Below are positions 495-61,761 of a stretch of 64,000 bases of DNA, piece by piece; the stretch's first letter is position 1, and every line of letters begins with the position of its first letter. The position numbers were made by a program, and so were the translations under genes. The notes under the pieces were generated by a model, which was given only the letters and a program-made list of their open reading frames with translations, had not been told where the DNA came from and did no database searches. Origin of the DNA: Halostagnicola sp. A56 (GTDB lineage: Archaea > Halobacteriota > Halobacteria > Halobacteriales > Natrialbaceae); assembly GCF_000691505.1 (NCBI RefSeq), contig NZ_JMIP02000025.1, positions 151,312 to 215,311 of the forward strand, written 5' to 3'.

Positions 495-571
495 TAGTAA
501 GTAATTGTGAACGTGTTCGGTAAATCCATCGCCTATAGTGGACCAGACCAACGCGAGGAAAACAGATAATT

Positions 572-655
572 CTACTCGTCTCGAGTCGTCGCCTCGAGCA
601 ACATGACCACTCCTCCGAGCAAAGTCACGGTTCGCAGGAAGTTGAACTTGTTCGC
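572..655 (-). pseudogene. C-terminal scrap of a small membrane protein (DoxX-like?)
   Basis: The minus strand reads NKFNFLRTVTLLGGVVMLLE followed by ATTRDE and a stop at 572. This resembles the last helix of DoxX-type membrane proteins, but too little is left to be sure. It sits between the ABC ATPase promoter side and the truncated TAXI gene and is probably one more joined fragment. Confidence 0.25.
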
Positions 656-1227
656 CTGCCGTTACTCGCCTTCCATGAGCCAGCAGTCGCGGATCGACGG
701 CGTCGTCCCAGGAGTACATCTATCGCGTGTCCAATGTGACGGAGCATGGGACTTCGAATAGCGGATCCAGGGGGATTAGGAGCGACCTGCTGACCTGCTA
801 GGTCGTTTACCGTTTCGATCCCCGAATCACGTGGTGCCACTAAACCGCTTTGTACGCTATGAGCATGAAACAACCCGGCGATATCGACATCAAGGGGATT
901 CTCTTCGAATTCCCCTTCTCCGTTCACCATCTGCATCGCCATTGATGTGTGAGTGTACGCGATATCCGCATTGCCAGCGTTCAGCTGAAACATCCCCTGC
1001 TGAGCACCGTCAGCCGGTCGGGCATCAATACGAAGGCCGTCGACTTGTTCATTGACGACTGTGGCAAGGGCCTGCGACATCTGGTAGATTGTCGTTTCTT
1101 CGGCGGCAGTTACCATTCGAATCTCGGTCTGATCTCCGCCCCCGCCACCGAGACAGCCGGCTGCAAGTGCTGTTCCTGCCACTGTCATCGTCTTCAAGGC
1201 ATCTCGGCGTGTACTAACTTGCGCCAT
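625..1227 (-). pseudogene. TAXI-family TRAP transporter solute receptor, truncated
   Basis: Start ATG at 1227. Residues 1-25 form a Tat-like signal and lipobox (STRRDALK, then GTALAAGCLGGGGG), followed by a binding-protein fold typical of the TAXI family (AEETTIYQMSQALATVVNE, AYTHTSMAM, DLAGQQVAPNPPGSAIR). Homology stops after about 160 residues near position 740; the last 40 codons of the open frame (VLLGRRRRSATAGS) are unrelated sequence read through. TAXI receptors are normally about 330 residues, so the second lobe is missing. The partner TRAP membrane subunits are absent. Confidence 0.8.
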
Positions 1228-1399
1228 GGTACCATAGTATCGGGAGTAGTATAAAAACCATTGGGTAAATATAGTAACTTTGACACATATCATGGCCCAT
1301 GACAATTATTTCTATATGCTTAAAATGTAGAAATAAAGTGCGAATGCCAAGAGAAAAAGATATGAGACAATAATTTTCTCTCTTCTGTAAGAGATTGTT

Positions 1400-1920
1400 C
1401 TGAAGAGTACCCGGCCTCGAAAATCCGGTCGAAGTCTGCAGGTGGGATTCCGGGGCCATCGTCCTCGACTGCGAAGCCCGATTCTATCGGTTCGACCCAG
1501 ACGGTGACGTCCGACCCCCCGTGTTCGATCGCGTTCCCAAACAGATTCTCGAGTAGTTGCCGGAATCGGTCACCATCTGCCTCCACGGCCAGCGAGTCGC
1601 CATCATCGACGCAGATTAGTTCGCCTCCCGTTGTGGTATCACCGTCAGCGATAGCCCAGGCATCTTCGACGGTGTCCCAAAAGGAGACGAGTTCGGTTTC
1701 ACCGATGTCCCGTCCTCGCCGTGTAAGCCACAACACGTCGTCGATGAGCCGCTCCATTCGGTCGTGTGCCTCCGCAACTGCCTGGAGGTGCTCGCTGTCG
1801 CGTTCCGTTCGAGCGAGTTCGAGGTATCCGTTGGCCAACTGCAACGGGTTTCGAAGGTCGTGGGAGACGACGCTGGCGAACTCGTCGAACTTGTCACGTT
1901 CCCGCTTGAGCGTTTGCTCG
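1400..1920 (-). pseudogene. Sensor histidine kinase, central fragment
   Basis: The minus strand reads an H-box (FASVVSHDLRNPLQLANGYL near 1850), an N-box (LENLFGNAIEHG) and a G1 box (VEDDGPGIP), that is HisKA plus the start of HATPase_c. It breaks off at FEAGYSS, where the family continues with the G2 box. The sensor domain is missing upstream: at about 1920 the frame passes into lysA sequence. Both ends are broken, so this cannot be a working kinase. Confidence 0.8.
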
Positions 1921-1934
1921 CGTGCTTTCGGGAA

Positions 1935-2085
1935 ACGCGGCCGAAAACCGGCCGTAGTTCTCCTTCACGCGATCGAGATCCATCACGTAAAGCGGCGTGT
2001 CGTACTCGGCGGCGAGCGACTCGAGTCGCTCGAGATTCCAGTCTACGAGCCGGCGAACGGCCGGCGAGTCCGCGAAATCACTCAT
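1935..2085 (-). pseudogene. lysA: Diaminopimelate decarboxylase, N-terminal fragment
   Basis: ATG at 2085 begins MSDFADSPAVRRL; then LAAEYDTPLYVMDLDRVKEN and GRFSAAFPES follow, the N-terminus of haloarchaeal LysA, a PLP-dependent enzyme of lysine synthesis. Only about 50 of some 415 residues remain and the PLP lysine is lost. The fragment is joined in another frame to the histidine kinase fragment. A full copy is presumably elsewhere in the genome. Confidence 0.65.
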
Positions 2086-2374
2086 TATCAACTGGAAGTG
2101 ACCGGGAGGATTCAAGCGTTTGGGTTCGTCCGCTCGCCGAGAAGCGGGTGGACCACCTGAATCGATACCGTCTACTCCCTCAGGTTCGGTGTCGCAGGCA
2201 GATCCGATCCACTCCGTGTTGGTTCATCGTCAGCCCGCCTGTCTCCGCTTGCCAATAAGGTGAATGTGTCAGATACAAGAGTACAAGGATACAAGAATAC
2301 AAGCGTACAGCCCATATCAATAATATTTCGGATACACTCTTGATGATCCGGCTCGTTGGTTCCCGTATGTCGAT

Positions 2375-2965
2375 CGCGTCGACGACGGCCGTCTCGTTAT
2401 TAGTCACGAGATCCGTGGGAACCGACGCGAGAAGCAAGGTGAGAAACACGGCGTAGATCGTCGTCACGATGAGGACGGAGCCGATAACGGCTCGAGGAAG
2501 GTTCTTTCCGGGGTTTTTGATCTCTTCGGCAACAGACGTGATCTGAACGAAGCCAAGATAGGAGACGAAGATAACCCCGGTAACGGGCAACACTTCGCCG
2601 GTCGTTCCCGCCGGTGCAATCGGTTTCAGCGAGTCGATGTCGGCGTTAAAGATCGCGACGGCAGAGAACGCTCCCAGGATCGCCAGAAGCACCGAGACGA
2701 TGATGATCTGGAGCGTTCCGGTCTCTTTCGCGCCAGCGTAGTTGATACCGATGAACACCAGCGCACCCACGAGTCCGATTACCTGCGCGGGCATGAGAGT
2801 TATCGGGCCGACGCCGACCGCGCTCATTCCGAGGAAGTCATTGACGTACTCGCCGAGTCCGAACATGTAGAACGCGGAGGCGAATGCGAGTCCAATCCAG
2901 TTCGCCCAGCCAGCGATCGACCCGAACAGCGGGCCGAGCGCCCGGTTGACGTAAAATTCCGTACA
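2375..2965 (-). pseudogene. APC-family amino acid permease, internal fragment
   Basis: About 195 residues of an amino acid/polyamine transporter: FYVNRALGPLFGSIAGWANW, IGLVGALVFIGINYAGAKET, LPVTGVIFVSYLGFVQITS, AEEIKNPGKNLPRAVIGS. These match transmembrane segments 3-7 and the conserved E-IKNPxKNLPRAI loop of the family. Both the N-terminal helices and the C-terminal half are absent; flanking codons in the same open frame look unrelated. Confidence 0.85.
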
Positions 2966-3053
2966 CGTATCTTGATTATCACGAAGACTGAACTGAAAGG
3001 GAGGGTGCACAAGCAAGCCCAATAGCTACGGGAGAAATCGAGAAATCTGTAAC

Positions 3054-3197
3054 ATGGTCAAGATTTCGACCGTCGTAATCGTTCTCGCTATCGTCTTTGG
3101 GATCGGACTGATTCCAATCCCAATCCCCGGCATCGGACCGCTTGTCGGCCTTTCGGGGATCATCATCGGAATTATCCTTCGCGTGCTCGGCCACTAA
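3054..3197 (+). CDS. Small membrane protein, 47 aa
   Basis: ATG at 3054, TAA at 3195. The product is almost entirely hydrophobic and rich in Ile, Pro and Gly (MVKISTVVIVLAIVFGIGLI, then PIPIPGIGPLVGLSGIIIG), with two short membrane segments linked by a proline-glycine turn. Such miniature proteins occur in many haloarchaea, function unknown. It appears whole, unlike its neighbours. Confidence 0.6.
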   Translation: MVKISTVVIVLAIVFGIGLIPIPIPGIGPLVGLSGIIIGIILRVLGH

Positions 3198-3424
3198 CGA
3201 GCGTGCGTTGAGTCCGATCCAACGGGTGGACTCGTCTTCGAAACTCAGACCCGATTGAGACTCCTTGAGTGGAATCGAGGGAAAAAGGAGTTCACCAGTA
3301 ACCGTTTCGAATGGTCGTCGATCGCTGCTATCGAATTTCGAACCCACGATCAGCTAAACTCTCGAGCGTCTCGGACGAGTCGCTCTTTAAGGCTGAGAAG
3401 GACCTCTCGAGCCACGGGAGCGCC

Positions 3425-3698
3425 GTCGTATAGCCACAACAGCGTCTCCGAGGTGAAAGAGTCGGTCAACGAGCAAACCGCCGAGGTGAAGCGATCGATG
3501 AGCGAACAGACCTCGGAGGTCAAAGAGACCGTGAGCAAGCAGACCGCAGACGTCAAAGAGAGCGTCAAGAAACAGACCTCGGAGGTCAAAGAGACGGTGA
3601 GCAAACAGACCGAAAGCAGTGAAGAGCAAAACTCCACCAGCGGTGACGCTCGATCTGAGACCACCGACGGCGACGGGACGCCGGATCAGAGCGACTGA
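3425..3698 (+). pseudogene. C-terminal coiled-coil fragment with 11-residue repeats
   Basis: The plus strand reads repeats of the form EVKETVSKQTA / DVKESVKKQTS in tandem, five or six times, then an acidic tail ending DGTPDQSD. The 11-residue periodicity resembles LEA-like or apolipoprotein-like amphipathic helices. Upstream codons (before about 3430) are arginine-rich and look like out-of-frame sequence, so the N-terminus is probably lost. Confidence 0.5.
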
Positions 3699-3782
3699 TT
3701 CGCGTCGAGACTCGAAACGGGCGAATCTCGAGAAACGACGGTTTTGTACGGCATATTCCAGAACCCGTATCGACACGCGTAC

Positions 3783-4085
3783 CTACACGTAATCGAACCA
3801 CTCGTCGTACTCGTCGGTTCGGCGCTCGACGACTTCGAAGAACTTCGACTGAAGCTCTTCGGTCACCGGACCGCGAGTGCCGTCGCCGATGACGACGTTG
3901 TCGACTTTCCGAATGGGGGTCACTTCCGCAGCAGAGCCAGTAAAGAACAGTTCGTCCGCCGTGTTGAGTTCACCGCGTGAGATCGAGACGGTGTCGTGGA
4001 CGGTGTAACCGAGGTCTTCAGCGAGCGTGATGACTGTATCGCGCGTGATGCCGTCGAGAATCGATTCGGACAGACCCGGCGTGTA
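3783..4085 (-). pseudogene. ilvE: Branched-chain amino acid aminotransferase, C-terminal fragment
   Basis: About 100 residues: YTPGLSESILDGITRDTVIT, ELNTADELFFTGSAAEVTPI, RKVDNVVIGDG, ending DEYDEWFDYV. This is the C-terminal third of IlvE, a PLP aminotransferase of Ile/Leu/Val synthesis, with the conserved FFTGTAAEV-type loop. The PLP lysine lies upstream and is missing. It is fused in frame to an unrelated membrane segment (4086-4274). Confidence 0.85.
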
Positions 4086-4274
4086 GAGCAGCAGGCTGAG
4101 AACGAACGTTACCCACTCCGATCCCGGCTGGAACGGGACAGTGAGGAGACTAAACGCTGTATTCGAGAGAACCGCGGCGATACCGAGAAGCGCGACAATT
4201 ACCAACGCACGGCCTCGAGACATCTGCCCGACTGGCGACTCGAGCGTGTCAGTCTGACTTGTCGTTTCGACCAT
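4086..4274 (-). pseudogene. N-terminal fragment of a membrane protein, fused in frame to ilvE
   Basis: ATG at 4274 (MVETTSQTD; another at 4283) begins a protein with one clear membrane segment (ALVIVALLGIAAVLSNTAFS) and a second starting at WVTFVLSLLL. Exactly at the second helix the frame passes into IlvE without a stop, making a 166-residue chimeric open frame with a promoter-like AT stretch upstream (4300-4320). Family not identified. Confidence 0.5.
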
Positions 4275-4381
4275 AGACGACATGTCGAACCGTTCGTAAA
4301 TATGTATTCTCTGAACGGATTTTAAGTCTGTCGTCTGTCATATCCGGAATAGCTATCCGAATCGCGACCGATCGCAGACGC

Positions 4382-4575
4382 ATGGCCGACATGACTCGGA
4401 CCGTTCCGGACGACGCGTACGCGGCCCTCGGTGACGAAACGCGACTCGAGATTCTGTTCGAACTCGCCGACCACTACGAAGCGGCCTGGTCGGCCGGTTG
4501 GCTCTCCTTTTCGACCCTCTGCGATCGAGTCGGTGTCGACGATACGAGCCGATTCAACTACCACCTCCAGACGCT
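4382..4575 (+). pseudogene. ArsR-like winged-helix regulator, N-terminal fragment
   Basis: ATG at 4382. VPDDAYAALGDETRLEILFE and FNYHLQTLR are typical of the haloarchaeal ArsR/HTH_20 regulators. The protein breaks off right after the recognition helix (about residue 64), where the sequence passes into the tail of an opposing HTH-10 gene. A TATA-like element precedes it. Confidence 0.7.
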
Positions 4576-4576
4576 A

Positions 4577-5032
4577 CGAGTTCGAAATCCCGAGTCGCTC
4601 GGCAAGGTAGTCTTGCGAAACGGATCTGGGAATGTTATAGTAGCCGGAGAAGTACGCGATCGAGAGGATTTCGCGTTGCTGTTCGGTGAGAATGTAAGAC
4701 TCCCCGGTCGAGGCCGTCGATTCGTAGAGCTGTTTGATCCAGAAAGAGACGTTGTGCTCTCGGCAGTACTCCTGAAAGTCGGACAGCGCGGACCGTTCTG
4801 GGAGGTGAACTCGAACGATCCAGCCGGGATCGCCGCTGACGATCGAGAAGACGTAGATGCCGCGCTTGATACACGTGTCGGGTACGATATCACGGCTCGT
4901 GTCGGCCGTAACGCGATAGATTACTCGGTTTTCGAACGTGGCGATGCGATCGGACGCCCCAACCGTCCCGTCTGCGTCCATCGTCTCCTCGAGCGCGGCG
5001 TAGTCCTCGGCGAACACCGAAACGAAATAGAA
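4577..5032 (-). pseudogene. Bacterio-opsin-activator-like HTH-10 regulator, C-terminal fragment
   Basis: About 150 residues: VFAEDYAALEETMDADGTVG, RVHLPERSALSDFQEYC, then the start of the HTH_10 motif LTEQQREILSIAYFSGYYNI and LAERLGISNS. Haloarchaeal Bat-type regulators end with this helix-turn-helix; here it stops in the middle of the HTH. The N-terminal sensor part is also absent. It abuts the ArsR fragment tail to tail. Confidence 0.75.
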
Positions 5033-5035
5033 TCT

Positions 5036-5555
5036 CGAAGGTGAAGCCAGCGACGTAACCCGTAACAACCGCGCTTGCTGTGAACAGCCCGACGGCGAGC
5101 GGAACCAACAGCAAGCTTCCGGGCGAGAGAAACCCGTATCCGACGATACCAACGAGTAAGACTGTCAGCGGAGCGAGAACCAGACAGGCGGATAGAAACT
5201 CAGTGAGCAACATCCCGACGGTGGCCGTTCGGATTGAGACGGTCGTCAGGACGAACGATTTCGCTCTCGGGGTTCGCCAGTGTAAGAGCGCCCGCTGCGC
5301 GAGAAACCAGACAGCGAATATCCACAGCGCACTCACACCCACCCGAACTGAACCGGGGACAGAGAGCGGACCTGAGAGTGATCGCAAGAGGAGCGCATAG
5401 AGGATTCCCATCCCGCCAAACCAGATCGCCATTCCGACGGCGGAAATTCCAAGCAAATAGAACCGGTACCGATTCCGCCGAAGTCCACGAATCGTTCGGC
5501 GGGTTCCGACAATCCCCAACTGAACGCCATGATGCAGCCAATTCGGTTCAGTCAT
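5036..5555 (-). pseudogene. ABC-2 type permease, N-terminal fragment
   Basis: ATG at 5555 (MTEPNWLHHGV) overlaps the stop of the preceding ABC ATPase as ATGA. At least four membrane segments are readable (YLLGISAVGMAIWFGGMGIL, ALWIFAVWFLAQRA, VGMLLTEFLSACLVLAPLTV, VGLFTASAVVTGYVAG). It breaks off near 5036 after about 173 residues; permeases of this kind are normally over 400. Confidence 0.7.
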
Positions 5556-5645
5556 TTGCTGCTTGCTCTGTGTTGGGTTCCTCACTCGTTAGCTCGAGGA
5601 ATGCCGCTTCGAGTGTCTGGTGGTCTCCGGTTTCGGCGCGATGTG
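5552..5645 (-). pseudogene. ABC transporter ATPase, last ~30 residues
   Basis: The minus strand reads ETGDHQTLEAAFLELTSEEP and a tail NTEQAAND with stop at 5552-5554. The A-F-L-E-L-T pattern is the classic C-terminal end of CcmA/NatA-like ABC ATPases. Its stop overlaps the permease start, so this pair is a native operon piece broken at both distal ends. Confidence 0.65.
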
Positions 5646-6131
5646 TGAGATCGCTCGGTGTCGAGTCCCATGGTTACGTTCGCGAGGGTTCCGAAGTCCG
5701 TACCGTCGGTGCCGACGATAGATTTATCTATAAGATTTCTAGCAAGTATTTCTCCCATACCGGTTCATTTTCCGCGAAGCGTATTAAATGTAATGAGAGA
5801 GTGTCTGTCAGTTCAGCGACGTTCAGCGGCGTTCGGATCGGTTTTTTCTACACACTGATGGCGTACTGCTCCCGGCGTCGGGCGAAACCATCGAGCGTCG
5901 ATCATACCATCACTTCTCAAACGTATATGGCATAAGTTATTTTGTCGGCGGCGCTCCACTTCGTTCGATCGTACCAGTACGGTGAATTCGACAGGGGAAG
6001 CAATCGATAGTTTCCGACGGGGATTTGATGTCCAAAGCGAAATCTAGCCAGCCATTACGATCGAATACTGATGCTCGAGGGGAGAAAGTTACTGAATCGA
6101 TAATCGTCTCGGAAGGCTTTTAAATTCGAGC
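5646..6131. other. Gene-free stretch
   Basis: No convincing coding region on either strand; codon periodicity of haloarchaeal genes is absent and stop codons are frequent. A TATA-like TTTATCTATAA is seen near 5726. The stretch separates two unrelated truncated transporter genes. Confidence 0.5.
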
Positions 6132-6762
6132 CATCTGCTCATCGGCCCGATGATGCTTATCCTCTCGGCGCTGGCCTTTTACCCGTTGATTCGGACGTTC
6201 TGGCTGTCGCTCCAGAGCGACGATCTCTACGGTTCGCATCCCATCGGTGAGTTCCGGGGAATCGACGGCTACGTCCAGATACTCTCCGGCGAAATGGATA
6301 CCGTTCTCAGTGATCCGTTCATCAGCCTGAGCGATCCGTTCTCGAGCGCGCTGGTAGTGACGCTGCTTATCACGCTTATCAGCGTCTCGATTGGGACGCT
6401 CCTCGGGCTCGGGATGGCGCTCATCCTCAACAAGGAGTTCCGCGGTCGGACGTTCGCTCGGATGATAGTCATCCTCCCGTGGTCGATCCCGATCGTGATC
6501 CAGGGGATGATGTTTTATCTGTTGTTCCAGCCGAGACTGAGCCCGTTCGTCGATATCTTCCACACGATGGGGCTGTTCTCTGCGAATCCGCTGACGAGCC
6601 CCCGTGACTCGACGATAATCGTGATACTCATCGATATCTGGCGGAAGGTTCCGTTCATTGCGCTCATTATTCTGGCGGGGCTGGCGAGCGTCAACCAGAG
6701 CCTCTACGACGTGGCGAAAGTCGCCGGCGCCTCGAAGTGGCAGCAGTTCAGACTGATCTGGT
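6132..6762 (+). pseudogene. Sugar ABC transporter permease (MalF/UgpA type), truncated at both ends
   Basis: Starts abruptly near 6132 in a membrane segment (MMLILSALAFYPLIRTFWLS). Several helices follow, then the family loop that docks on the ATPase: LYDVAKVAGASKWQQFRLI (the EAA motif). It ends exactly at 6762, where an inverted repeat begins. Helix 1 and the last helices are missing. The binding protein and ATPase are not nearby. Confidence 0.85.
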
Positions 6763-6767
6763 CCCAT

Positions 6768-6790
6768 ATTGTTCTTATTGAACAATATAG
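6768..6790. repeat. Inverted repeat at a fragment junction
   Basis: ATATTGTTC TTATT GAACAATAT is a perfect 9-bp stem with a 5-base loop, sitting exactly where the sugar permease breaks off. It could be a terminator, an operator or the end of a lost mobile element. Confidence 0.6.
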
Positions 6791-6795
6791 GAACG

Positions 6796-7085
6796 TCCGG
6801 AATATTTAGATCGCTGTTCGGAAATCGTTTTCGGTTGATTTAATTGAAAACATCACCTTTCTGCTCCCAAAGCTCTCCTATGTACAATAATAAATAGTAA
6901 ATATGGTGTATATTGGATTGGTATCCTGATATATGCCTAGATATTATCCATAATGGCTAATCTCGTATACGATTGTAATATATCTCATTATATAATATTG
7001 TGCATAATATAAATTACTATGTCCTTCCTCTCTGGACCGTAAAAATCTGATCGAACCACCATCCGTTGCGCGAGCGAAACTAGTA
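6796..7085. other. AT-rich gene-free stretch
   Basis: Strongly AT-rich compared with neighbours, many stops in all frames. No RNA gene recognised. Confidence 0.5.
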
Positions 7086-7180
7086 TCAAAAGGAGGTTTT
7101 GGAATACAATATCACACATAGTTTCCTATTGGGCGGCGATATCCAAATGCATATTACATTGTAAAGGGAGCTAGTCTGAC

Positions 7181-7340
7181 TCGACTCGAGACGACGCACG
7201 TCCTCCCGGTCGAACCGCGTGAATTCCTTTCGCCACTCGATCCGCGTCGCGTCGATGCCGAGTTCGTCGGTCAACTGCGACCCGCTAACGCTTCGACGAT
7301 CCGCATCAGAGATCTTGTACTCGCTCCCATCACCGGTCAT
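7181..7340 (-). pseudogene. Haem-sensor/globin-coupled transducer, N-terminal fragment
   Basis: ATG at 7340; residues 10-53 read [20 protein letters not shown] and [14 protein letters not shown], which resemble the N-terminus of haloarchaeal HemAT/globin-coupled transducers just before the globin fold. Only about 53 residues remain. Two further pieces of the same kind of protein are at 7462-7885 and 9897-10403 and may be from one broken gene. Confidence 0.6.
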
Positions 7341-7461
7341 AATAACGATTTTTCAATTCTCTTTTGAGTATATAAATCCACTTGTTATTCCGGGCAGACG
7401 GGGTTTCTGGAGGCGGGACTGACGGCTCTGAACGGAGCGATTCAACACAAACAGATTCGCG

Positions 7462-7885
7462 TTACTGATCCTCAGTCAGTCGTTTTGCTTCCGTCTCGAG
7501 GTCGTCCATGAGGTCGAACTGCTCGTCCGCGACGTCGGCGATTTCTTCGGACTTATCAGACACTTCCTCAGTCTGACGTTTCGCCTCTTCTGTCATACTT
7601 GCGACTTCCTCGATGCTCGCCGCTTGATCGTCGGTCGCCTCCGCGACCTGATTGATTCCCTCGGAAGTGTCGCTGACCAGATCCTCGATACGCGAGAGGT
7701 TGTCGACCGTCTCCTGGACCATCTGGACGCTCTCGTCCAGTTCCTCGATCGCCGTCTCGAGACTCGTCGCGGTGTGTTCGGTGTCCTCTTGGATCTGCGT
7801 GACCGTGCGTTCGATGTTCTTCGCTTCCGTTTTGGAGTTTTCGGCCAGCGACTTCACCTCGTTCGCGACCACCGCGAACCGATCC
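7462..7885 (-). pseudogene. Methyl-accepting chemotaxis transducer, C-terminal fragment
   Basis: About 140 residues of a signalling coiled coil: FAVVANEVKSLAENSKTEAK opens in the conserved hairpin tip region (A-V-V-A-x-E-V-x-x-LAE), followed by heptads (QEDTEHTATSLETAIEELDE, TDDQAASIEEVASMTEEAKR) and the ending EAKRLTEDQ with stop at 7462. The tip itself is missing, because the break falls inside the highly conserved region. Confidence 0.85.
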
Positions 7886-7956
7886 CGCTCGACGAGGTCC
7901 TCGAGGACGGCGTAGCGATTTTGCGCGACTGTCGCTCGGATACCGACGCGGTCGTC

Positions 7957-8080
7957 GGTTTCGATCGGCGTGCCGCGGGTCCGGATCGACCAGTTGATCG
8001 AAATCGGCTGGAAGGGCCTGCTGGTCCTTTCGTTCGCGAACCTGTTGCTCACCGCGATTATCGTGGGGCTGATAGCATGA
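7957..8080 (+). pseudogene. nuoH: NADH dehydrogenase-like complex subunit H, C-terminal fragment
   Basis: RIDQLIEIGWKGLLVLSFAN then LLLTAIIVGLIA and a TGA at 8078 match the end of NuoH, the membrane subunit at the quinone site of complex I. Its stop overlaps the ATG of nuoI as in intact haloarchaeal nuo operons, so this is a real operon piece cut upstream. Confidence 0.8.
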
Positions 8081-8388
8081 TTGGGATACTCAAATCGATG
8101 GCAACGACGATGAAACACGCGCTGGATGGCTCTACGTTCACCGTGGAGTATCCCGAAACTGCGCCGGATGTCTCGCCGCGGTTTCGCGGCGTCCACAAGT
8201 TCAGTCAGGAACGCTGTATCTGGTGTCGCCAGTGTGAGAACGTCTGTCCAAACGATACGATTCAGATCGTGATGGACGACAAGCGAAACGGCGAACAGTA
8301 CAACCTCCACATCGGCCAGTGTATCTACTGTCGACTCTGCGAGGAGGTCTGTCCCGTCGACGCGATTTTGCTCACCCAGAACTTCGAG
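8077..8388 (+). pseudogene. nuoI: NADH dehydrogenase-like complex subunit I, truncated
   Basis: ATG at 8077. Two [4Fe-4S] motifs are intact: CIWCRQCENVCP (residues 47-57) and CIYCRLCEEVCP (82-92), the electron wire from the hydrophilic arm to quinone. Homology stops at LLTQNFE (residue 104); haloarchaeal NuoI has about 153 residues. The remaining open frame to 8436 is unrelated. Confidence 0.9.
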
Positions 8389-8532
8389 TACGACCGTTGT
8401 GACGAGCTGCACGATCGTTCGCTGCGTGGGAAATAGCCGCTCGAGATTCGGCCCTGTTAATCCGCTCATAGAAACCGCCTACTTTCGGTTACAAGCCGGA
8501 TAACTACAACCTATCCCGGCCGAGAGGTCGGT

Positions 8533-8748
8533 ATGATCACCTGTACGAACTGCGAGACCGCCCAGTTTCTCCAGATCACGCAGAGTCGGGTGTACTTCGA
8601 AGACGGCGAGATGATCAACGAAATCACCGAACACTACGAATGTACGCTCTGTGAATCGACGGGACAGTACATTTACGACGAGGACCACGACGAAGCGAGC
8701 GTCACAGGCGACGTCGAACTCACCAGAGAGCGACCGAAGTACGCGTAA
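8533..8748 (+). CDS. Small zinc-ribbon-like protein, 71 aa
   Basis: ATG at 8533. Two CxxC pairs (ITCTNCETAQ at residues 3-6, YECTLCESTG near residue 40) suggest a structural zinc. Acidic, no membrane segment; ends LTRERPKYA. It appears complete, with an upstream AT-rich element near 8500. Widespread uncharacterised haloarchaeal family in my judgement; function unknown. Confidence 0.75.
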   Translation: MITCTNCETAQFLQITQSRVYFEDGEMINEITEHYECTLCESTGQYIYDEDHDEASVTGDVELTRERPKYA

Positions 8749-9411
8749 AAACTCGCGCCGAGTTCGACTCGTCTCTCTCGGGGTTGGAATCGGTTCGTCT
8801 CGCTCGGTGATCTTCTGGCGTTCACCGTTTTTCGTTTCGCTCGTTCGATTCTGACGATGCGTTCCGATCGTTCGCGTTCGTCGTCGTGTCCGCGTTCGTC
8901 GTCTAAACGAAACCGGGGGACAGCAAAACGGTAGTGACGATTCGCTGACCCAGCAAATCGTCGACTGTGAATTCCACCCAATACTCCGATCGCCAGAATC
9001 AGTAACGAGACAATCTCGAGAACGGCTCGGTGCCAGTAAAAATCGAAAGAAGGTGAATTACTACGGGTTTTCGAGGAGTATCTTCGGAAAGCGATCTCGC
9101 GCCACCTCGACGGGTCGTACTTGTTCCTGAATACCCGGACAAGGGTCGTGTGAATATTATGCAATTCGAGGAGTCGATCTCAAACGCATTTATCCGGGGG
9201 AGTCGCCGGCCCGGCGAAATACGACGCGATCAAACCACCGTGACGGCGTCGACCGTGAGAATACCACCAGTTATATTATTTGCTGCAACTATTACTCAGG
9301 GCGAAAAAGCGGCGAATCGGAAGAGTGCACCCTCGAGACGCCACGCGACCCGATATAAAGGAAGGTGACAGTCGTCGCACAAACCGGAGAGACGGGGTGC
9401 GGGCACCAACC
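8749..9411. other. Gene-free stretch
   Basis: Open frames here are arginine-rich and low quality on both strands. One minus-strand hydrophobic run (AVLEIVSLLILAIGVLGGIH near 8980-9035) might be a remnant of a membrane protein, but no start or homologue could be argued. Confidence 0.45.
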
Positions 9412-9421
9412 TTTATAAACC
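9410..9421 (+). promoter_or_regulatory. TATA box of the TBP gene fragment
   Basis: CTTTATAAAC lies about 27 bases before the ATG at 9447, the spacing expected for a nearly leaderless haloarchaeal transcript. Confidence 0.55.
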
Positions 9422-9446
9422 TTAAATACGTCTTTTTAAGCGACTT

Positions 9447-9896
9447 ATGACGGATCCGAAGGACACCATCAATATCGAAAACGTGGTGGCGTCGACCGGC
9501 ATCGGACAGGAACTCGACCTCCAGAGCGTCGCGATGGACCTCGAGGGGGCCGACTACGACCCCGAGCAGTTTCCCGGTCTCGTCTACCGAACGCAAAACC
9601 CCAAGTCCGCCGCGTTGATCTTTCGCTCGGGCAAGATCGTCTGTACCGGCGCGAAAAGCACCGACGACGTCCACGAAAGCCTTCGCATCGTCTTCGATAA
9701 ACTTCGTGAACTCCAGATTCAGGTGAACGAGGATCCGGAAATCGTCGTCCAGAACATCGTTACCTCGGCCGACCTCGGGCGAAATCTCAACCTGAACGCG
9801 ATCGCGATCGGTCTCGGCCTCGAGAACATCGAGTACGAACCCGAACAGTTCCCTGGACTCGTCTACCGACTCGACGATCCGGATGTCGTGGCGCTT
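9447..9896 (+). pseudogene. tbp: TATA-binding protein, C-terminally truncated
   Basis: ATG at 9447. Both TBP half-repeats are readable: ENVVASTGIGQELDLQSVAM with FPGLVYRTQNPKSAALIFRS, and the second copy ADLGRNLNLNAIAIGLGLEN with FPGLVYRLDDPDVVAL. It stops at residue 150, before the last strand and helix (normal length about 186), and continues in frame into transducer sequence. A functional tbp must exist elsewhere. The promoter is intact, so the chimeric frame may be transcribed. Confidence 0.9.
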
Positions 9897-10403
9897 CGTG
9901 CGGCTGAGGGTGACTTGACTCAGCGCTTGGATCCTGACAGTCAAAACTCTGCGATGACTGATATTGCAGATGCCTTTAACGGGATGATGGACGATATCGA
10001 GGGGGCGTTCACTCGAATTCAATCATTCGCCGACGACGTTGCCGCTTCGAGCAAGCAAGTCACGACCGGAACGCAAGAGACAGAGAACGCGAGCCAGCAG
10101 GTGAGCGAATCCATCGAAGAAATCTCTGCAGACGCCGAGTCACAGTCGGGTAATTTACGCGAGGTCGCAAACGAGATGCAGAGCCTTTCCGGAACGGTTG
10201 AAGAGATCGCGGCCTCTGCGGACGAAGTCGCGGACAAGTCTCGGAGTTCCACCCAACTCGGTCGTGAAAGCCGAGAAGCCGCTTCGGACGCGATGGAGGA
10301 GATGCATATGATCGAATCGAAATCCGCGGAGACAATTGAGGAAATCGCGTCACTCGCGGATGAAATAGACGAGATCGGAGAGATCGTTGAACTGATCACT
10401 GAC
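9897..10403 (+). pseudogene. Transducer signalling domain, middle fragment (in-frame in TBP fusion)
   Basis: Residues 151-320 of the 393-aa open frame starting at 9447: AAEGDLTQRLDPDSQNSAMT (HAMP-like), then heptads and EIGEIVELITDV, the approach to the signalling tip. The sequence beyond the tip is missing here, but a complementary C-terminal piece lies at 7462-7885 on the other strand. Confidence 0.75.
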
Positions 10404-10405
10404 GT

Positions 10406-10551
10406 AACAACAATCTATCTTCACGACAGAGACGATTTCCGTCGAAGAATCAAGCAGTTGGAAATCACTGACGACGAATTTTTAGATGCAAGTCAGACAG
10501 ATATCCACACAGCGATAGCAGAACTAGCCCTCGACAACCCAGACCTCCTAT
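10406..10551 (+). repeat. 146-bp sequence identical to 59614-59759
   Basis: Exact direct copy by base-by-base comparison. It marks both sides of a break in one small gene; the flanks diverge abruptly (before AACAACAATC, and after GACCTCCTAT). Confidence 0.9.
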
Positions 10552-10628
10552 TACGCAAACTGAAACAGGTCCAAGAGGAACGGAACCGAGAGAAGTACTG
10601 GTCTGATGATGAGTGGCCCGGAGAATAA
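10406..10628 (+). pseudogene. C-terminal part of the small plasmid-type protein whose start is at 59603
   Basis: TTIYLHDRDDFRRRIKQLEI to the natural end EKYWSDDEWPGE. The first 146 bases are identical to 59614-59759, where the same gene has its start codon but no end. Together they give a protein of about 77 residues (MSEQTTIYLH...DEWPGE), hydrophilic and charged, function unknown. Here it forms the third segment of the TBP-transducer fusion frame. Confidence 0.8.
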
Positions 10629-10664
10629 CTATGGTTTTATTGAATGTTGTAATTTGATGGTCAT

Positions 10665-10685
10665 CTGTTTACACCCTGTAAACAG
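10665..10685. promoter_or_regulatory. Palindrome upstream of serine recombinase fragment
   Basis: CTGTTTACA CCC TGTAAACAG, a perfect 9-bp inverted repeat, about 50 bases before the recombinase start at 10735 and just upstream of a TATA-like TTATATAGG. Likely an operator or recombination-site half; part of it (TGTAAAC) recurs at 10713. Confidence 0.5.
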
Positions 10686-10734
10686 AGTGGGGTTACTTAT
10701 ATAGGGTAGTAGATGTAAACTAGAAATGGAAAAT

Positions 10735-10846
10735 ATGTCTAAAACTCTGGAAAACTTAGCAACATATATCCGAAAAAGTACCGCTGACCAAGAACAAGAA
10801 CATCAAAGGAAAGATATCAAAGAATGGCTTGACCGTCACGTGGTCA
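10735..10846 (+). pseudogene. Serine recombinase/resolvase, N-terminal fragment
   Basis: ATG at 10735 (another at 10726). MSKTLENLATYIRKSTADQE followed by QEHQRKDIKEWLDRH matches the N-terminus of serine recombinases: Y-x-R-x-S with the nucleophilic serine in IRKST, then the D-Q-x-x-x-x-Q motif. It breaks after about 37 residues. A piece that may be its C-terminus lies at 22150-22328. Confidence 0.65.
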
Positions 10847-11148
10847 GTCGTGTACGACGAGAGGACAAACACCGAGACATCTGCCTCAGCAAGCGCTGTC
10901 GCAACCGTCGCCAGGAATCCAACGAGTTCGAATGGCAGATCCATCTCGAACGTCAGGCGTTTCCACCCGGACTCGACCGCACTGGCATCGACACTGCCAA
11001 CATCATCGTGTTCGACGACCACTGTCGTCTCAGTTTCGTCCTCAACGGTTGCAAACGCAGCAGGATGGCTATGATCGGTCCGGCAGACTGCATATGTTTC
11101 CTCCGATATCCTGACTGTACTTCCCTGAAGAAATTCGGTCGGATCCAT
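10832..11148 (-). pseudogene. ACT-domain amino-acid-sensing protein, truncated at the C-terminus
   Basis: ATG at 11148. ISEETYAVCRTDHSHPAAFA, WKRLTFEMDLPFELVGFLAT and ADVSVFVLSSYTTDHVTVK are typical of the two-lobed ACT/CASTOR-like regulatory proteins of haloarchaea. The final strand and helix are lost at the junction with the recombinase fragment; the two pieces overlap by a few bases in my boundaries. Confidence 0.7.
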
Positions 11149-11262
11149 ACAGACGATAATTGCTCGGCGAGTGATAAGAGTGTGCCACCATCGGTCGACC
11201 CTTTGTTGCTAGCTTCGACCGGTCTTTCGGATCAAATAGAACTTGCTCCCTCTGAGATTTAA

Positions 11263-11925
11263 GAAAAGTTTGTCTGTCTGAAAACTCGGTTAAAATCGAT
11301 TATCTATGGAGACGGTTGCGTTCGCGGAGGTCGTCGACCGGAAGGAATATTACGAGTAATCCCGACTCGCGTCCTGTCGGTCGTACTTAGTCTATTCTAC
11401 GTTTCGAGAGGAGCTGACGGGATACCAGTTCTCCGAAGTGTTCACTCTCGCTCTCGACGATAGCACTACCGCCTCCGGTGATATTGTTATCAAAATACAA
11501 TTCTATAATCCGTCTAAGATGGAGATGGTACGTTTTCCCGCCGATTAGACGCTTAAAACTCAAAATTTGAGGCACGAGCAGAGTTGCTTCACCAAATACT
11601 GTAATAATCCACTTAATACTATTATATATTTTAATATTTTAGTAGTATGGCTATTAATGGGAAGAATATGTGCTTGATGGTCGATATTGGTGATAATCCA
11701 TATAATTTGAATGTTGTGATATTGTAATCTATCCACAATACAAAAACTGGTCGTTCGTGTGCTCTCTTTGGCTCGTCTCGAGAATCCGTCGGCCATCAGT
11801 TCGAAACCCAATGGCGGTTCGGTCGATCTATACATTCATATGCATGTAAACTATTCGGCCGTCTGTCCGTTCCAATAGGGACAGTGTCTCTCAGCAGACA
11901 CCATGCGTTCTACGATGTGGGACGA
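11263..11925. other. Mostly gene-free stretch with possible gene ends
   Basis: Short tails only: a minus-strand ending (GSAIVESESEHFGELVSRQL, stop at 11387) and a plus-strand ending (AEVVDRKEYYE, stop near 11359), neither identifiable. 11580-11740 is AT-rich with no reading frame. Confidence 0.4.
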
Positions 11926-12054
11926 TCAGGAGTGTTGAATGTTCAGTTCGATAATATTCGCGACGCCGAGTGCCTGATCGGGCAGTTCCTCCCGAAACCG
12001 CTCTCCCTGCATTCGATGCGTCGGACCGGCGACGCTAATCGCACCGAGCGACCG
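11926..12054 (-). pseudogene. IclR-family regulator, C-terminal fragment
   Basis: SLGAISVAGPTHRMQGERFR followed by EELPDQALGVANIIELNI and a stop at 11926 match the end of the IclR effector-binding domain (G-A-I-S-V-S-G-P). Only about 43 of some 255 residues remain. It continues upstream into an unrelated membrane protein fragment. Confidence 0.8.
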
Positions 12055-12059
12055 TCGAG

Positions 12060-12391
12060 GAGCGGCTGTCGGTCGTCGGTGGCGTCGCACGGTAGTCGTA
12101 GAACAGTTCGTTTTCGTCTTCATCGACGACGACGAACTCGTAGGCGGTGTTTTGTTCCTCGCTGGGGTGTGAGAATTTGTGCATTTCGACGATCGGTATG
12201 AGCGTCGATCCGAGCACGGTTACCGCGACGAGGACGAGAATAAATCCTCCAACCCAGGCCTTCCTCGCAAGTTCTCGATTCGGCAGTATTTCTCGATCCG
12301 AAAGCGCGAGCAGGACGAGCGTACCGAGGAGGAACCCGACGAAGAACACGGGGAAGATTATGTTCCGAAAGTCCGAGAGCAACTCTAACAT
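12060..12391 (-). pseudogene. Membrane protein, N-terminal fragment
   Basis: ATG at 12391. Two membrane segments (NIIFPVFFVGFLLGTLVLLA and WVGGFILVLVAVTVLGSTLI) followed by an outside part (SHPSEEQNTAYEFVVVDEDE). The outside domain breaks off near residue 110 into IclR sequence. Family not recognised; the topology resembles small haloarchaeal surface or oxidase-accessory proteins. Confidence 0.5.
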
Positions 12392-12415
12392 TGGTCTATC
12401 TCTATTGTTAATCAA

Positions 12416-13142
12416 TCCGAAATGTCCGTATAGTAGTTCCGTACGTTTATTACTCGATACCGTTCTCTCTCACCAGATCGAATATGCACACCTAGTCGCG
12501 GCCTCAAGTTCTTCTATTCCTAGATAGCACACACAATATTGTTATATTCGAAAAATGCTGCTAAGTGTTCACTCGATGATTGATCTGCGAGGCAATCAGC
12601 ACTATAGCAACCACGGTTGCGCTATGAACCAGGCCCTATCGGGCGTCATGATCCAAATAATAAGATTTCCCATAACTCACAGCCAAATTCGGACGGGGGA
12701 GATCGAATCCGCCCGTCTCACAATTAACGCTTCGATAGGAGTCAAATCCTCGAGAAAACGCACATCATAGTGCTGGTATAGCGACTTCCACCACTCGGTC
12801 CATTTCTCACTGTCAGCCGATGGGTCCGCGAGGAATCATATAAATAAAATGGTATTTTACATATTATGAGAATCCATCGAGACGGTCTGTTGTGCTTCAC
12901 CGCGAAAGCGATGAAAAGATAGGGACTGCCGCGGCCGATAATTTCGATCATCGTCCTAATACACACAATATGTCATTGTACATCGGGTAGTCGTACGAGA
13001 ATGCGCCCATATTTGGTTGTTTGTAAACAGTTAGCATTATATTGTTCACTACCATGGCTATGAATCGTACATTGAGCAATGATCCAATTGAAATCTGCTA
13101 ATTTAGAGGACGAACGGTCAGACAGTGCCGTGGTGATCGACG
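12416..13142. other. Gene-free stretch
   Basis: AT-rich; about 730 bases with frequent stops. Nothing codes convincingly. Two TATA-like stretches (near 12840 and 13035) are present. Confidence 0.5.
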
Positions 13143-13277
13143 ATGGTTCATAAAAAAGAGGAGCACAAAAAAGACTGCTACGGCGACGAAGTCCGCGAAC
13201 ACATCCTCGAGTTCGCCGACGAAGGCTTCGAGTCGATTCCGGAAGACGAGCGAGACAAGTGGTTCACCCGGTTCAAG
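13143..13277 (+). pseudogene. Ferredoxin-dependent nitrite/sulfite reductase-like, N-terminal fragment
   Basis: ATG at 13143 (MVHKKEEHKKDCYGDEVREH) then FADEGFESIPEDERDKWFTRFK, which resembles the start of haloarchaeal sirohaem reductases just before the F-W-G-L segment. The break at 13278 coincides exactly with the start of the 41-bp repeat. The assignment rests on 45 residues. Confidence 0.4.
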
Positions 13278-13318
13278 TCTAACCGAATTTCGGTGACCGA
13301 ACTATCTCCTTCTTCAGT
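13278..13318. repeat. 41-bp sequence identical to 19616-19656
   Basis: Exact match running from TCTAACCGAA to CTTCTTCAGT. On the minus strand it encodes EEGDSSVTEIRLD in both places, the shared residues at the break of one split gene. Confidence 0.9.
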
Positions 13319-13729
13319 TCCGATTTCGAAGGAGATCTCTTCTTCTTCGTCAGGATCGATAACAACGTAATTTTCACCAACGTCACTCCACTCGCCGGAA
13401 TCTCCATCGTACCACGAAAGTGTGGGTGTTCCAGTGAAGTACTGAAAACCATCGTTACTGATCGTCGCGTTGACGATCAGGTTTTCTCCTTCAGCAGGGT
13501 CATTGATGTTGGTTATTTCCGACTCGAGAACGGGTTCACCGAAATTTCGGTAGGTGATCTCCTCACCATTTTGAGCGTCAACGATGGGGATCCCTTCAGT
13601 TGCCTCCGCTGCTCTGGTCTGAAGCGTTCCAGTATTTGGATTGATTTCGATCGGCGTCGATGAATCTTCGGTGATTAAATCGGGTGACTCGCCATCTGAA
13701 TACACAATATGCTCTTCCGAATCTCTCAC
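13279..13729 (-). pseudogene. Secreted CARDB/Ig-like domain protein, first half
   Basis: The minus strand reads a beta-sandwich protein: PIEINPNTGTLQTRAAEATE, ENLIVNATISNDGFQYFTGT, SWYDGDSGEWSDVGENYVVI, DEEEEISFEIGTEEGDSSVT. The N-V-T-I-S-N and E-I-S-F motifs are typical of CARDB-like adhesion domains of haloarchaeal surface proteins. It ends in the 41-bp segment shared with 19616-19656, after which the second half continues at 19105-19615. No signal peptide is seen. Confidence 0.65.
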
Positions 13730-13936
13730 TTCAATAGGTTCGCCATTGTACTGGCGACTGCCGGCACCGAATCTCCGTTTTGATTCGCTTCGACGGCCGT
13801 TTGATTGGCGTTGGCGGTGACATCGGGAATTAGTTATGCCAGTCCCGTCGCTGTCGCGACACGGTTCTGCGGAGAAAATCGGACGGTAACGAAGCGATAC
13901 GGGTTTGTCGTGTTTCGGGGGTCGTCTCAGATCATC

Positions 13937-14130
13937 CTATGCGACGTTGAAGCCGCGATCTCGAAGGAAATCCTCGATTCGGCCCGAGTGATTCCCTTGT
14001 AGTTCAATCTGGCTGTCTTCGACTGTGCCGCCACAGGCGAATTTCGATTTGAGATCCGACGACAGACTGTCGAGGTCGACGTCTTTCGGATCGAATCCCT
14101 GGATGATCGTTACCTCCTTACCGTATCTGA
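13937..14130 (-). pseudogene. Translation initiation factor aIF1 (SUI1), N-terminally truncated
   Basis: [40 protein letters not shown], then [20 protein letters not shown] and a stop at 13937: the C-terminal two thirds of SUI1/aIF1, including the KFACGGTV loop. The N-terminal zinc segment is missing, so a complete gene should exist elsewhere. Confidence 0.9.
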
Positions 14131-14390
14131 ACCTCGGAGGATGGTTTTGATGTGTGCCTTCAGTCCAATAAGTTAGTAAAAGAAATAAAGAATGGTGTGC
14201 CAATATGCATTTTTAATATAATAAGGACGTTTCTGCAGGATGCGCGGGATATAGTTACGGCTCTTACCGACCGATGCAGGCAGTCAAGAACCGGACCCAG
14301 TTGTTGTCCAATATAATATTGAATGAATTGTGACCGACCATCTGGAGGATGAATAGCAATCTTTAATATTTTTCCCACTTAACTTACTAC

Positions 14391-14572
14391 ATGAGCGTTG
14401 TTAGCGTCTCAATGCCTGAGGAACTACTTGAACGCATCGACCAGTTCGCAGACGACCACGATTATACTGGTCGCAGTGAGGTACTCCGAGAAGCAAGTCG
14501 GGATCTACTTAACGAATTTGACGACCAGAAACTCGAAGATCGTGAATTGATGGGTGTCGTAACAGTTGTTCC
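14391..14572 (+). pseudogene. NikR/CopG ribbon-helix-helix regulator, truncated
   Basis: ATG at 14391, about 25 bases after a TATA-like [30 protein letters not shown] and [16 protein letters not shown] form a ribbon-helix-helix, followed by RELMGVVTV, the opening strand of the NikR ligand domain. Homology ends near residue 60; the frame then runs 19 codons into foreign sequence. The metal-binding His/Cys residues are lost. Confidence 0.75.
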
Positions 14573-14772
14573 CGAGAATCTCTCCGGAGGTCGGCTTGTC
14601 TGCCATGCACGGGCCTACGGCCTCGCCTGATAAGAATATTGTGTGACTGTCTCGGCTTTCGAAGAATCGTCTCCAGCGCCAGCGGTATCGTCGCCGATCG
14701 GCCGATCGAATTATCCAAGAACCAAAAGGATACCGACGATACATCTAATACACTCGAAGACAACCCATACAT

Positions 14773-14945
14773 ATGCCGATCGACATCGAGACGTTCGAAT
14801 CCTCCGGCGAGGATCGCCTCACTGCTGGTGGCGAGACGAACGCTGAACGGGTTATGCACTTTCTTGCGACGAACCCCGATAAAGCGTTCACGCAGAGTGA
14901 AATACGCGATTCGACCGGCGTCAAAGCCGGTAGCATCAGCGTCGT
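14773..14945 (+). pseudogene. Winged-helix regulator, N-terminal fragment
   Basis: ATG at 14773. [40 protein letters not shown] and [17 protein letters not shown] form a MarR/TrmB-like winged helix common in haloarchaeal toxin-antitoxin-like pairs (MPIDIETFE start). It breaks within the recognition helix, joining the opposing glnA fragment. Confidence 0.65.
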
Positions 14946-15156
14946 CAGATTCCTGAATTCGAACGAAGCCTTCGATCGAAGAACCGTCGAAGTAAATGCC
15001 GTCGGTGAACGCCTTCTCGGCCTGTCGGGCCGGAACGGAGACGTTCTTGACCGTTCCGAGAATGTCGGTAAACTGGAGTCGAAGGAAGTCGACATCCTTC
15101 TCTTCGATCTCCTCTAGTACCTCCTGTTCCGTAGATGTGATGTTTCCGCTTGTCAT
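14946..15156 (-). pseudogene. glnA: Glutamine synthetase, N-terminal fragment
   Basis: ATG at 15156. [40 protein letters not shown] and [17 protein letters not shown] are unmistakable N-terminal GlnA sequence (beta-grasp domain). Only 71 of about 450 residues remain and the active-site residues are lost. It is divergent from the lrp fragment, the natural glnA-lrp arrangement of haloarchaea. Confidence 0.95.
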
Positions 15157-15282
15157 CTTTCTCGTCGTGCTATCCGAGGATCCCTACTACTAAAACCCTA
15201 CTGTATCGAGCAAATCTTCTCCTGCTCCGAGGAAACTGGATATTCGTAAAGTTCTAATGTGATGGGCGCGTGGGTCGATGTG

Positions 15283-15420
15283 ATGACGTACGAAAATCTC
15301 GATGCAAAGTTGGTGAATGCGTTGCTCGGCGACGGCCGGGCGAGTCTTCGGAGTCTCGCCGAGGAGCTCGACGTCTCCGTAACGACCGTCTCGAATCACC
15401 TCTCGGATCTCGAAGAACAG
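15283..15420 (+). pseudogene. lrp: Lrp/AsnC regulator, N-terminal fragment
   Basis: ATG at 15283 ([20 protein letters not shown]), then [20 protein letters not shown]: the N-terminal HTH of Lrp. It ends at about residue 46 and the ligand-binding RAM domain is absent. Together with the divergent glnA start it forms a 480-bp chromosomal piece cut inside both genes. Confidence 0.85.
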
Positions 15421-15481
15421 GACGCTTTTATACCCCCATACTGTGTAAATACACAACCTAATCCAGATATGCCCTTTAAGT

Positions 15482-15880
15482 ATGAGTAAACGAAGTCCTG
15501 GCTTCCTCTGGGAGCCCGAGAGAAAACTGGTCGACGCGTATCGGGTGTCAACGACAGCTTTTGACAAACCTAATAGAACAGATTTGGATGAGGTCAGAGA
15601 CCCCTCGGAGGCAAAATCGCGTTTGAAGACCGAGATCGCATCGCCGGAGGAACTCCGCGAAATACTCGAGATAATATACCAAGATCTCGAACGAATTGAG
15701 GCATACCACTGTCGCGTTCGCGAACAGCCTGGTGGCCGCTGGACCTGGAGCGATCAAGTTCTCCCAAAAGTCCAACGTGAGGTGGAACAACTATCGCTCC
15801 TATTCAATCGGTGGGAACAGGAATCTCAACGTAAAGGCCGCAATAATGTTCGAGGAGTCGTATCGCTCGACGAACGATGA
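15482..15880 (+). CDS. Hypothetical protein, 132 aa
   Basis: ATG at 15482, 60 bases after the Lrp fragment and about 35 after a TATA-like TTTTATAC (15426). Mixed charged helical protein: [57 protein letters not shown]. No recognised domain. The last 15 residues may be out-of-family read-through. Confidence 0.5.
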
Positions 15881-15965
15881 CAGGAAATCTTATTCACCGA
15901 GATTTCGCAGGTCCTGAGCGAACGCTGTCGCCGATGCGGGAATGGCACAGAGGGTTTAGAAACAC

Positions 15966-16391
15966 ATGGTAGACGAATCCAAAAACATCGAACTCACAGA
16001 AGACGACCTCGAAAACAAATCGAAAGGCCAGCTCATCAAGATGGCCGGCCAGCTCCGAGATCGGCGAAACGATCTCAACCAGATGGCCTCCGAGCGGGCA
16101 TCCAGCCGCGACGACTTAAACGCGAAGACACGCGAGAAGGTCGACGAGGCACAGGAACACCGCGAAAAACGCGACGAGCTCAACGAGCAGGTTCAAGAGC
16201 ACAAGGAGAGCCGCAACGAGCTCAATGCAGAAGCGAACAAGCTCTTCGACCGCGTCGAGAAGCTCAAATCGGACATGGAACTCGACGAGGGAAAGGACCT
16301 CGAAGAGCTCGAAGAGCGGTCGCTGATCGACAGTAGCGACGACGGAGCAGAACAGACGGACTCGAGCGATGTGGAATCGATCGTCGAATAG
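15966..16391 (+). pseudogene. Conserved haloarchaeal coiled-coil protein, C-terminally truncated
   Basis: ATG at 15966. DDLENKSKGQLIKMAGQLRD, DDLNAKTREKVDEAQEHREK, RDELNEQVQEHKESRNELNA, MELDEGKDLEELE match the N-terminal half of a long coiled-coil protein (about 300 residues) widespread in haloarchaea and often misannotated as phosphoserine phosphatase. After residue 121 the frame goes into an unrelated acidic tail, so about 60 percent is missing. Confidence 0.65.
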
Positions 16392-16420
16392 CAAGGCGAA
16401 CATGATTGGGTTCACACTAG

Positions 16421-16750
16421 CTAAATTTCTGTTGTAGATCCCGAAATACGGATCGAATATAATTTATAGAGCATACCGATGACGCCAACGCTTCCGAAGA
16501 GCAAGAATCCGAGAATACCAATGGAAGAAAACCCCTGAGAGAGGAGTAACGCGCAGGCTGCAATCCAGACTGCCGACAAAAACAGCATAGTCCAATCAGA
16601 CAAACCAAAGACATCCGTTGACGATTGATCCATCCAGTTAGCGAGTCTCGTTCCGAAATAGAACGTCAATAGTAACATGCCAAGGACGACATCTTCAATC
16701 CAGTTTCCGGTGGGTTCGCCCTGTAGAGCGCTCTCTATCCCTGGCTGCAT
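16421..16750 (-). CDS. Small membrane protein, 109 aa
   Basis: ATG at 16750. Three to four membrane segments (EDVVLGMLLLTFYFGTRLAN, WTMLFLSAVWIAACALLLSQ, SIGILGFLLFGSVGVIGMLY), ending RISGSTTEI. No family recognised. Unlike most neighbours it has a plausible start and end. Confidence 0.6.
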   Translation of the reverse strand: MQPGIESALQGEPTGNWIEDVVLGMLLLTFYFGTRLANWMDQSSTDVFGLSDWTMLFLSAVWIAACALLLSQGFSSIGILGFLLFGSVGVIGMLYKLYSIRISGSTTEI

Positions 16751-16854
16751 TACTATCCCAGCCGTCGCTATGAGGAGAATTCCCCAAATGACGTTCTTTC
16801 GTTGATATAGAGAGTGTCCGGCTACGCGCTCGCTCTCCCGGTGCTTGTGACGGG

Positions 16855-17040
16855 TTAGTTTCCTTGAATCGGATTGAACGCGCCGTTAATATCCCACTCG
16901 TGGAGACAGTGCGGGTTTCCGACTTGTTTTTCGCCGTTTTCGGTTGCAAGCTGCCAGGCTTCAAGCGTTTCGTCCCACCGTTCACCGCGACCACACCGTT
17001 CACAGACGCGGGCGGTCGGAGTTCGAAGTTCGACGCTCAT
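16855..17040 (-). CDS. HEWD-family small zinc protein, 61 aa
   Basis: ATG at 17040. CERCGRGERWDETLEAWQLA then GNPHCLHEWDINGAFNPIQG contain the CxxC pair, a further Cys and the diagnostic HEWDINGxF motif of the haloarchaeal HEWD family (function unknown). Full length for the family. Confidence 0.85.
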   Translation of the reverse strand: MSVELRTPTARVCERCGRGERWDETLEAWQLATENGEKQVGNPHCLHEWDINGAFNPIQGN

Positions 17041-17292
17041 TGGCGGGTATGCGAACTGGACACATATAACCGTGACTGTGTTCGGCAAACGCTGCATGTA
17101 TCGGCGAAAAATCGTGAAGAATTCAGCGAGTACCATCGAGACAGAGCCACTATTGGAATATCGTAAATTCGAAGAAACCGAACAGGTTTCGAGCGCCGTC
17201 CGAGTCGCCGAACCGGATCGATCGTCAATCCCACTCCGATTCGAGCGGTCAGTAAACCTTCCCCATCAACGAAACCTAACACAATGCCAACA

Positions 17293-24793: not shown

Positions 24794-24812
24794 AAGTACA
24801 GGTACATGGGGA

Positions 24813-49721: not shown

Positions 49722-49847
49722 GGATCGACGAAGGAACGAGGACTGATTAAGAGTACACCGGCGATGGGCAGAAAGAGATCAAAACATCTCTACTGCCAAA
49801 ATTCATACTCGAGAAAGGCTGTACTCCGATGGGCAAAAGATGGGCAG

Positions 49848-50261: not shown

Positions 50262-50298
50262 ATACGAGAAAACTTGTACATGCAGCCAGTGGTTGACC

Positions 50299-58160: not shown

Positions 58161-58178
58161 GTGACCACTGCGCACAAA

Positions 58179-61734: not shown

Positions 61735-61761
61735 AGCCAAGGCACTTCTTTCGAATGACAA

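Follow-up and report, generated by a model that had tools for sequence, protein, structure and literature searches.

Why do the two parts of a single 77-aa gene stand far apart in the window (the whole 64,000-nucleotide stretch of Halostagnicola sp. A56 DNA analyzed here), with the same 146 bp kept at both broken ends and the two copies 49,208 bp apart from start to start? Our comparisons of this sequence with the rest of the assembly and with related genomes point to an assembly artefact, in which contigs with unmerged overlapping ends were misjoined, rather than to biology, and we assign this reading a probability of about 0.96. The A56 assembly comprises 3,178,490 bp in 26 contigs, designated by C-numbers (C2, C6, C7, C10, C13, C14, C18, C19, and so on), of which the largest is C6 (712,144 bp). 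The window lies on C18, the N50 contig (262,614 bp), and a second repeat-rich contig is C19 (81,981 bp). For continuity tests and as a repeat control we used a congener genome, G004 (340,000 bp of it for the repeat control), which is very probably that of H. larsenii XH-48. An intact homologue of the 77-aa gene was available from a genome of the same family, G022. The coordinates of the features discussed are collected in Table 1.

Table 1. Features of the window and of contigs C18 and C19 (window positions unless a contig is named; joints are called false under the proposed reading).
Feature	Coordinates	Strand	Remarks
77-aa gene, 5' part (residues 1-52)	59603..59759	+	stops at contig end 59759
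Overlap copy 1, putative right end of contig ending 59759	59614..59759	+	100% = 10406-10551
Overlap copy 2, putative left end of small contig beginning 10406	10406..10551	+	100% = 59614-59759
77-aa gene, 3' part	10552..10628	+	homologue L003 runs on through this part
Small contig, ~432 bp, between putative false joints 10405/10406 and ~10837/10838	10406..10837	+	probably a separate contig
Chimeric ORF	9447..10628	+	TBP 9447-9905 (= C13) + transducer 9897-10405 (= C10) + 3' end of 77-aa gene
36-bp overlap, right end of small contig	10805..10840	+	probable true continuation C18:124933-124968, minus strand
ORF beginning as serine recombinase	10726..11262	+	broken at joint near 10838
String of small pieces	1..17257	.	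66% covered by 23 blocks (376-714 bp) with copies of >=99% identity on other contigs
Putative false joint 49992	49840..50261	.	49840-49992 (= 24806-24957) meets 49992-50261 (= 40055-40324 reversed)
Further putative false joint	49992..50407	.	49992-50261 meets 50262-50407 (= C18:21478-21623)
Putative false joint 58317	58166..58484	.	58166-58317 (= C11:213709-213860) meets 58317-58484 (= C18:59903-60070)
Pieces of dehydratase-like gene (L027-L029)	C19:54191-54696, 75150-75727, 78940-79497, 81494-81981
Diverged repeats (L015, L016, L019, L020, L021)	C18:38230-45366, 110809-113342, 126860-131874, 138432-141223

The initial annotation had described one small gene split into two halves with 146 bp retained by both, and this description holds. 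The two copies are identical at every position (a looser alignment extends to 157 bp at 97%), and an ATG at 59603 opens a frame that runs to 59759 and resumes at 10552-10628. In the related genome G022, the homologue is intact across the break (55% identity over 74 aa) and has the same upstream neighbors as the window copy, namely two genes encoding proteins of 125 aa (77%) and 40 aa (70%). A whole-genome search found homologues in 4 of 60 other genomes, all four of which extend past LALDNPDLL, where the copy at 59.7 kb in the window stops. The intact version that had been anticipated in related plasmids was absent from plasmids searched by tblastn, as it was from genome_contigs and viral_contigs, but the homologues in the four genomes run through the break. 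The gene is thus split, and the true continuation of the contig that stops at 59759 is the 432-bp contig beginning at 10406. The 77-aa protein has at most a sub-threshold Pfam match to DUF4332. It is also the last member of a conserved trio (125 aa, a 40-aa CxxC protein, 77 aa) common to window positions 59110-59759 and to L078:8324-9023 in G022.

Beyond what could be seen when the locus was first annotated, the 146-bp pair has hundreds of counterparts in the assembly. Contigs C18 and C19 together (344,595 bp) hold 211 repeat pairs of at least 98.5% identity, 162 of which measure 130-180 bp (mean, 154.5; SD, 6.9), and 141 of these 162 are exactly identical. No pair falls between 181 and 199 bp. 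Overlap length does vary, with 40 pairs of 35-128 bp and nine of more than 200 bp. As the same search returned no such pair in 340,000 bp of the congener G004, the 146-bp identity is not due to chance. Repeat intervals also abut one another within 2 bp (72 cases in C18, 23 in C19, and 12 on six of the other sampled contigs). Such back-to-back joints are expected where a false joint is flanked by overlaps on both sides, and random independent breakage would not give them. Ns occur at eight places in C18 and C19, of which five directly touch the end of an overlap and three lie away from any overlap found. One of the overlap-touching sites, C18:151310-151311, immediately precedes the first base of the window. 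The differences within near-identical copies include 6 interior indels and 17 interior substitutions and are therefore not mainly homopolymer errors. A distinct set of repeats on C18 (0.5-3 kb, ~87-94% identity) shares recurring end points and is unlike the 100% overlaps; it may be a genuine repeat family that these joins have likewise interrupted.

The window itself is a mosaic. In its first 20,000 bp, a search against the A56 genome gave blocks near-identical to other contigs, in both orientations and many of them abutting. Among the pieces strung along the first 17,257 bp, 12 of the 22 steps between successive blocks measure -9 to 0 bp, and the others leave stretches for which no copy was found. 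In an ORF-spanning test of the 376-714-bp blocks, ORFs crossed a similar share of block ends in the source contigs (19 of 34) and in C18 (16 of 34). Gene density is lower in the mosaic contigs: ORFs of at least 150 aa cover 59% of C18 and 40% of C19; coverage was 83-94% in 7 of 13 other sampled stretches and 49-74% in the remaining six (the end of C10, C2, C3, C17, C15, and one stretch of C14). The contig with its right end at 59759 likely starts at the joint at 58317.

Some parts of the window are of separate interest. Two long minus-strand ORFs, at 33237-36398 (1,053 aa) and 36402-37442 (346 aa), lie where the window resembles ordinary sequence and have no Pfam match at E 0.001. A CRISPR array with an RF01337-type repeat lies in two parts ~6 kb apart, at 17293-17390 (2 repeats) and 23588-24416 (13 repeats). 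It may also have been split by misjoining, as the smaller part begins just past the joint at 17257. A gene that we take, from reading its sequence, to be dihydroxyacid-dehydratase-like is whole at 60016-61761, and most of it is also present on C19 in four scattered, slightly overlapping pieces of 97-99% identity, the pattern to be expected if only fragments of a second, diverged copy had been assembled.

The small contig that carries the 3' part of the 77-aa gene can be followed at both of its ends. Across the 10405/10406 joint on the left it adjoins a block with an identical copy at C10:79419-79927, and across the joint at ~10837/10838 on the right one with an identical copy at C14:34916-35385. 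The ORF that ends at 10628, which the initial annotation had not recognized as composite, is a three-part chimera, in which the TATA-binding protein part is identical to C13 and the middle part to C10. The latter is presumably a chemotaxis-type transducer, a name given from reading the sequence; Pfam gave just a weak HAMP match. As assembled, the frame at the right end of this contig has no Pfam match. Following the 36-bp overlap there restores a serine recombinase/resolvase (PF00239, E 2.1e-29), which an intact homologue from Halovivax sp. KZCA124 matches at 71% identity over 221 aa. At the protein level, overlaps resolve the small contig at both ends, through the 77-aa gene on the left and the recombinase on the right.

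The same signature is found in a housekeeping gene. The gene for RNA polymerase subunit A', rpoA1, is whole in all four congeners but divided in A56, with profile positions 2-613 on C7 and 546-864 on C6, and the two halves have 165 identical bp in common. A living cell with rpoA1 divided in this way is very unlikely. The G004 sequence passes from C7 to C6 across the 165-bp overlap, and likewise from C13 to C10 by way of a short piece of C19, across overlaps of 175 and 154 bp. The congener loci compared contained or bordered on eight overlaps; G004 follows three and contradicts none, and homology is lacking on at least one side of the other five (C14:97220-97372, C14:97373-97526, C13:110466-110622, C10:40258-40411, and C6:488379-488485). 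Pieces that are neighbors in A56 contigs lie far apart in G004, by ~0.5 Mb (C13) and ~2 Mb (C14). A supposed truncation of uvrB at C14:97373 proved to be wrong, the gene being complete at C14:97614-99554.

The most probable course of events is as follows. With ~200-bp Ion Torrent reads as the sole data, assembled with MIRA, the overlaps of many contigs with their true neighbors would have fallen a little short of the read length (mean, 155 bp), and these contigs would have been left unmerged. These unmerged contigs would then have been set end to end with unrelated ones, giving 26 long "contigs" in which each false joint keeps its overlap twice, at the end of one piece and at the start of its true neighbor elsewhere. 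The 77-aa gene would lie on one such pair, from the end at 59759 to the start at 10406. The overlaps and their length distribution, the Ns at joints, the true continuation in G004 and in homologues, and the divided rpoA1 are observed; the step that made the joins, whether software or manual, is a part of the explanation that we infer. The 376-714-bp blocks call for an extra assumption, namely that redundant small contigs were strung together as well, because these blocks are contained in other contigs and not dovetailed with them.

The published account of A56 describes Ion Torrent PGM sequencing with 200-bp chemistry, assembly with MIRA 4.0.5, and filtering of plasmid sequences via Mauve alignment against the plasmids of H. 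larsenii XH-48 (PMC4972784). A step capable of joining contigs wrongly is absent from that description (PMC4972784), which counts against the artefact reading. The passages on A56 in two further publications that name the strain do not mention misassembly, and a literature search for this kind of MIRA/Ion Torrent error found no paper.

Alternatively, the duplications might have arisen in the cell. The cause favored in the initial annotation was a staggered break or template switching, and in its broadest form this would mean shattering and rejoining of the extrachromosomal DNA of A56, or its rebuilding by template switching, with breakpoint duplications of ~155 bp left behind. The hundreds of breakpoints, the near-blunt joins in both orientations, and the genome-wide sources are all compatible with such scrambling. 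Yet rpoA1 is split between two chromosomal contigs with the same signature, the duplication lengths cluster just below the read length, Ns stand at joints, and both the congener and the homologues track the overlaps and not the joints. We thus find the favored cause unsupported and consider scrambling in vivo very improbable. It is just as hard to believe that A56 truly carries large replicons built of blunt-joined ~155-bp and ~500-bp genome fragments, as an archaeal counterpart of chromothripsis. Among the papers listed by literature searches on archaeal chromothripsis and haloarchaeal gene-fragment mosaics, none was relevant.

Two other explanations are less probable still. Our first idea was an integrated 49-kb plasmid or provirus with the 146 bp as its left and right attachment sites, as direct repeats bound the 49-kb stretch, its circularization would restore the 77-aa gene, and an integrase-like SAM domain is present at 46280-47314. 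We dropped it on finding that flanks and interior are unrelated pieces: the left outer flank matches C10:79419-79927 exactly, but C10 continues beyond that match differently from the window at 59760, there is no tRNA, and the interior has more joints (10837, 49992, and 58317) and matches pieces of many contigs. A recent partial gene duplication, by homologous recombination or a transposon, would also yield two identical copies, but is about as improbable as integration: the true left flank belongs to one copy and the true right flank to the other, in a dovetail that recurs in the other pairs open to judgment, and the pair is one of 162 similar in length. The repeats, the 146-bp pair among them, behave as overlapping contig ends that were misjoined instead of merged. 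An overlap left by an assembler had been offered as a second choice in the initial annotation; its overlap origin agrees with the present reading, while its placement at a genomic repeat gives way to misjoined contig ends.

Misjoining of this kind would matter because the A56 genome is the representative of its species in the genome collection searched. Anyone mining it would be misled by its gene order, by chimeric ORFs such as the TBP-transducer fusion, by genes that seem to be lost, and by a CRISPR array that is possibly split, and the contig order in this region is unfit for use. The locus is ordinary as biology but serves as a useful warning on a reference genome, and a peak in repeat length at 130-180 bp provides a cheap test for such assemblies.

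Taken together, these features can be set against three known systems. Integration with duplication of an attachment site likewise places a direct repeat at each end of a stretch, but here no empty site results from the outer flanks of the two copies, and the stretch has internal joins. In chromothripsis-like rearrangement, as in A56, numerous short fragments are joined in either orientation; in A56, however, a housekeeping gene is broken in the same way, the overlaps approximate the read length, and relatives follow the overlaps. Short-read misassembly with unmerged contig ends resembles A56 in having overlaps near the read length, Ns at joints, broken genes of which both parts survive, redundant small contigs, and low completeness, and A56 differs from it in being unusually dense, with hundreds of overlaps on two contigs (262 and 82 kb).
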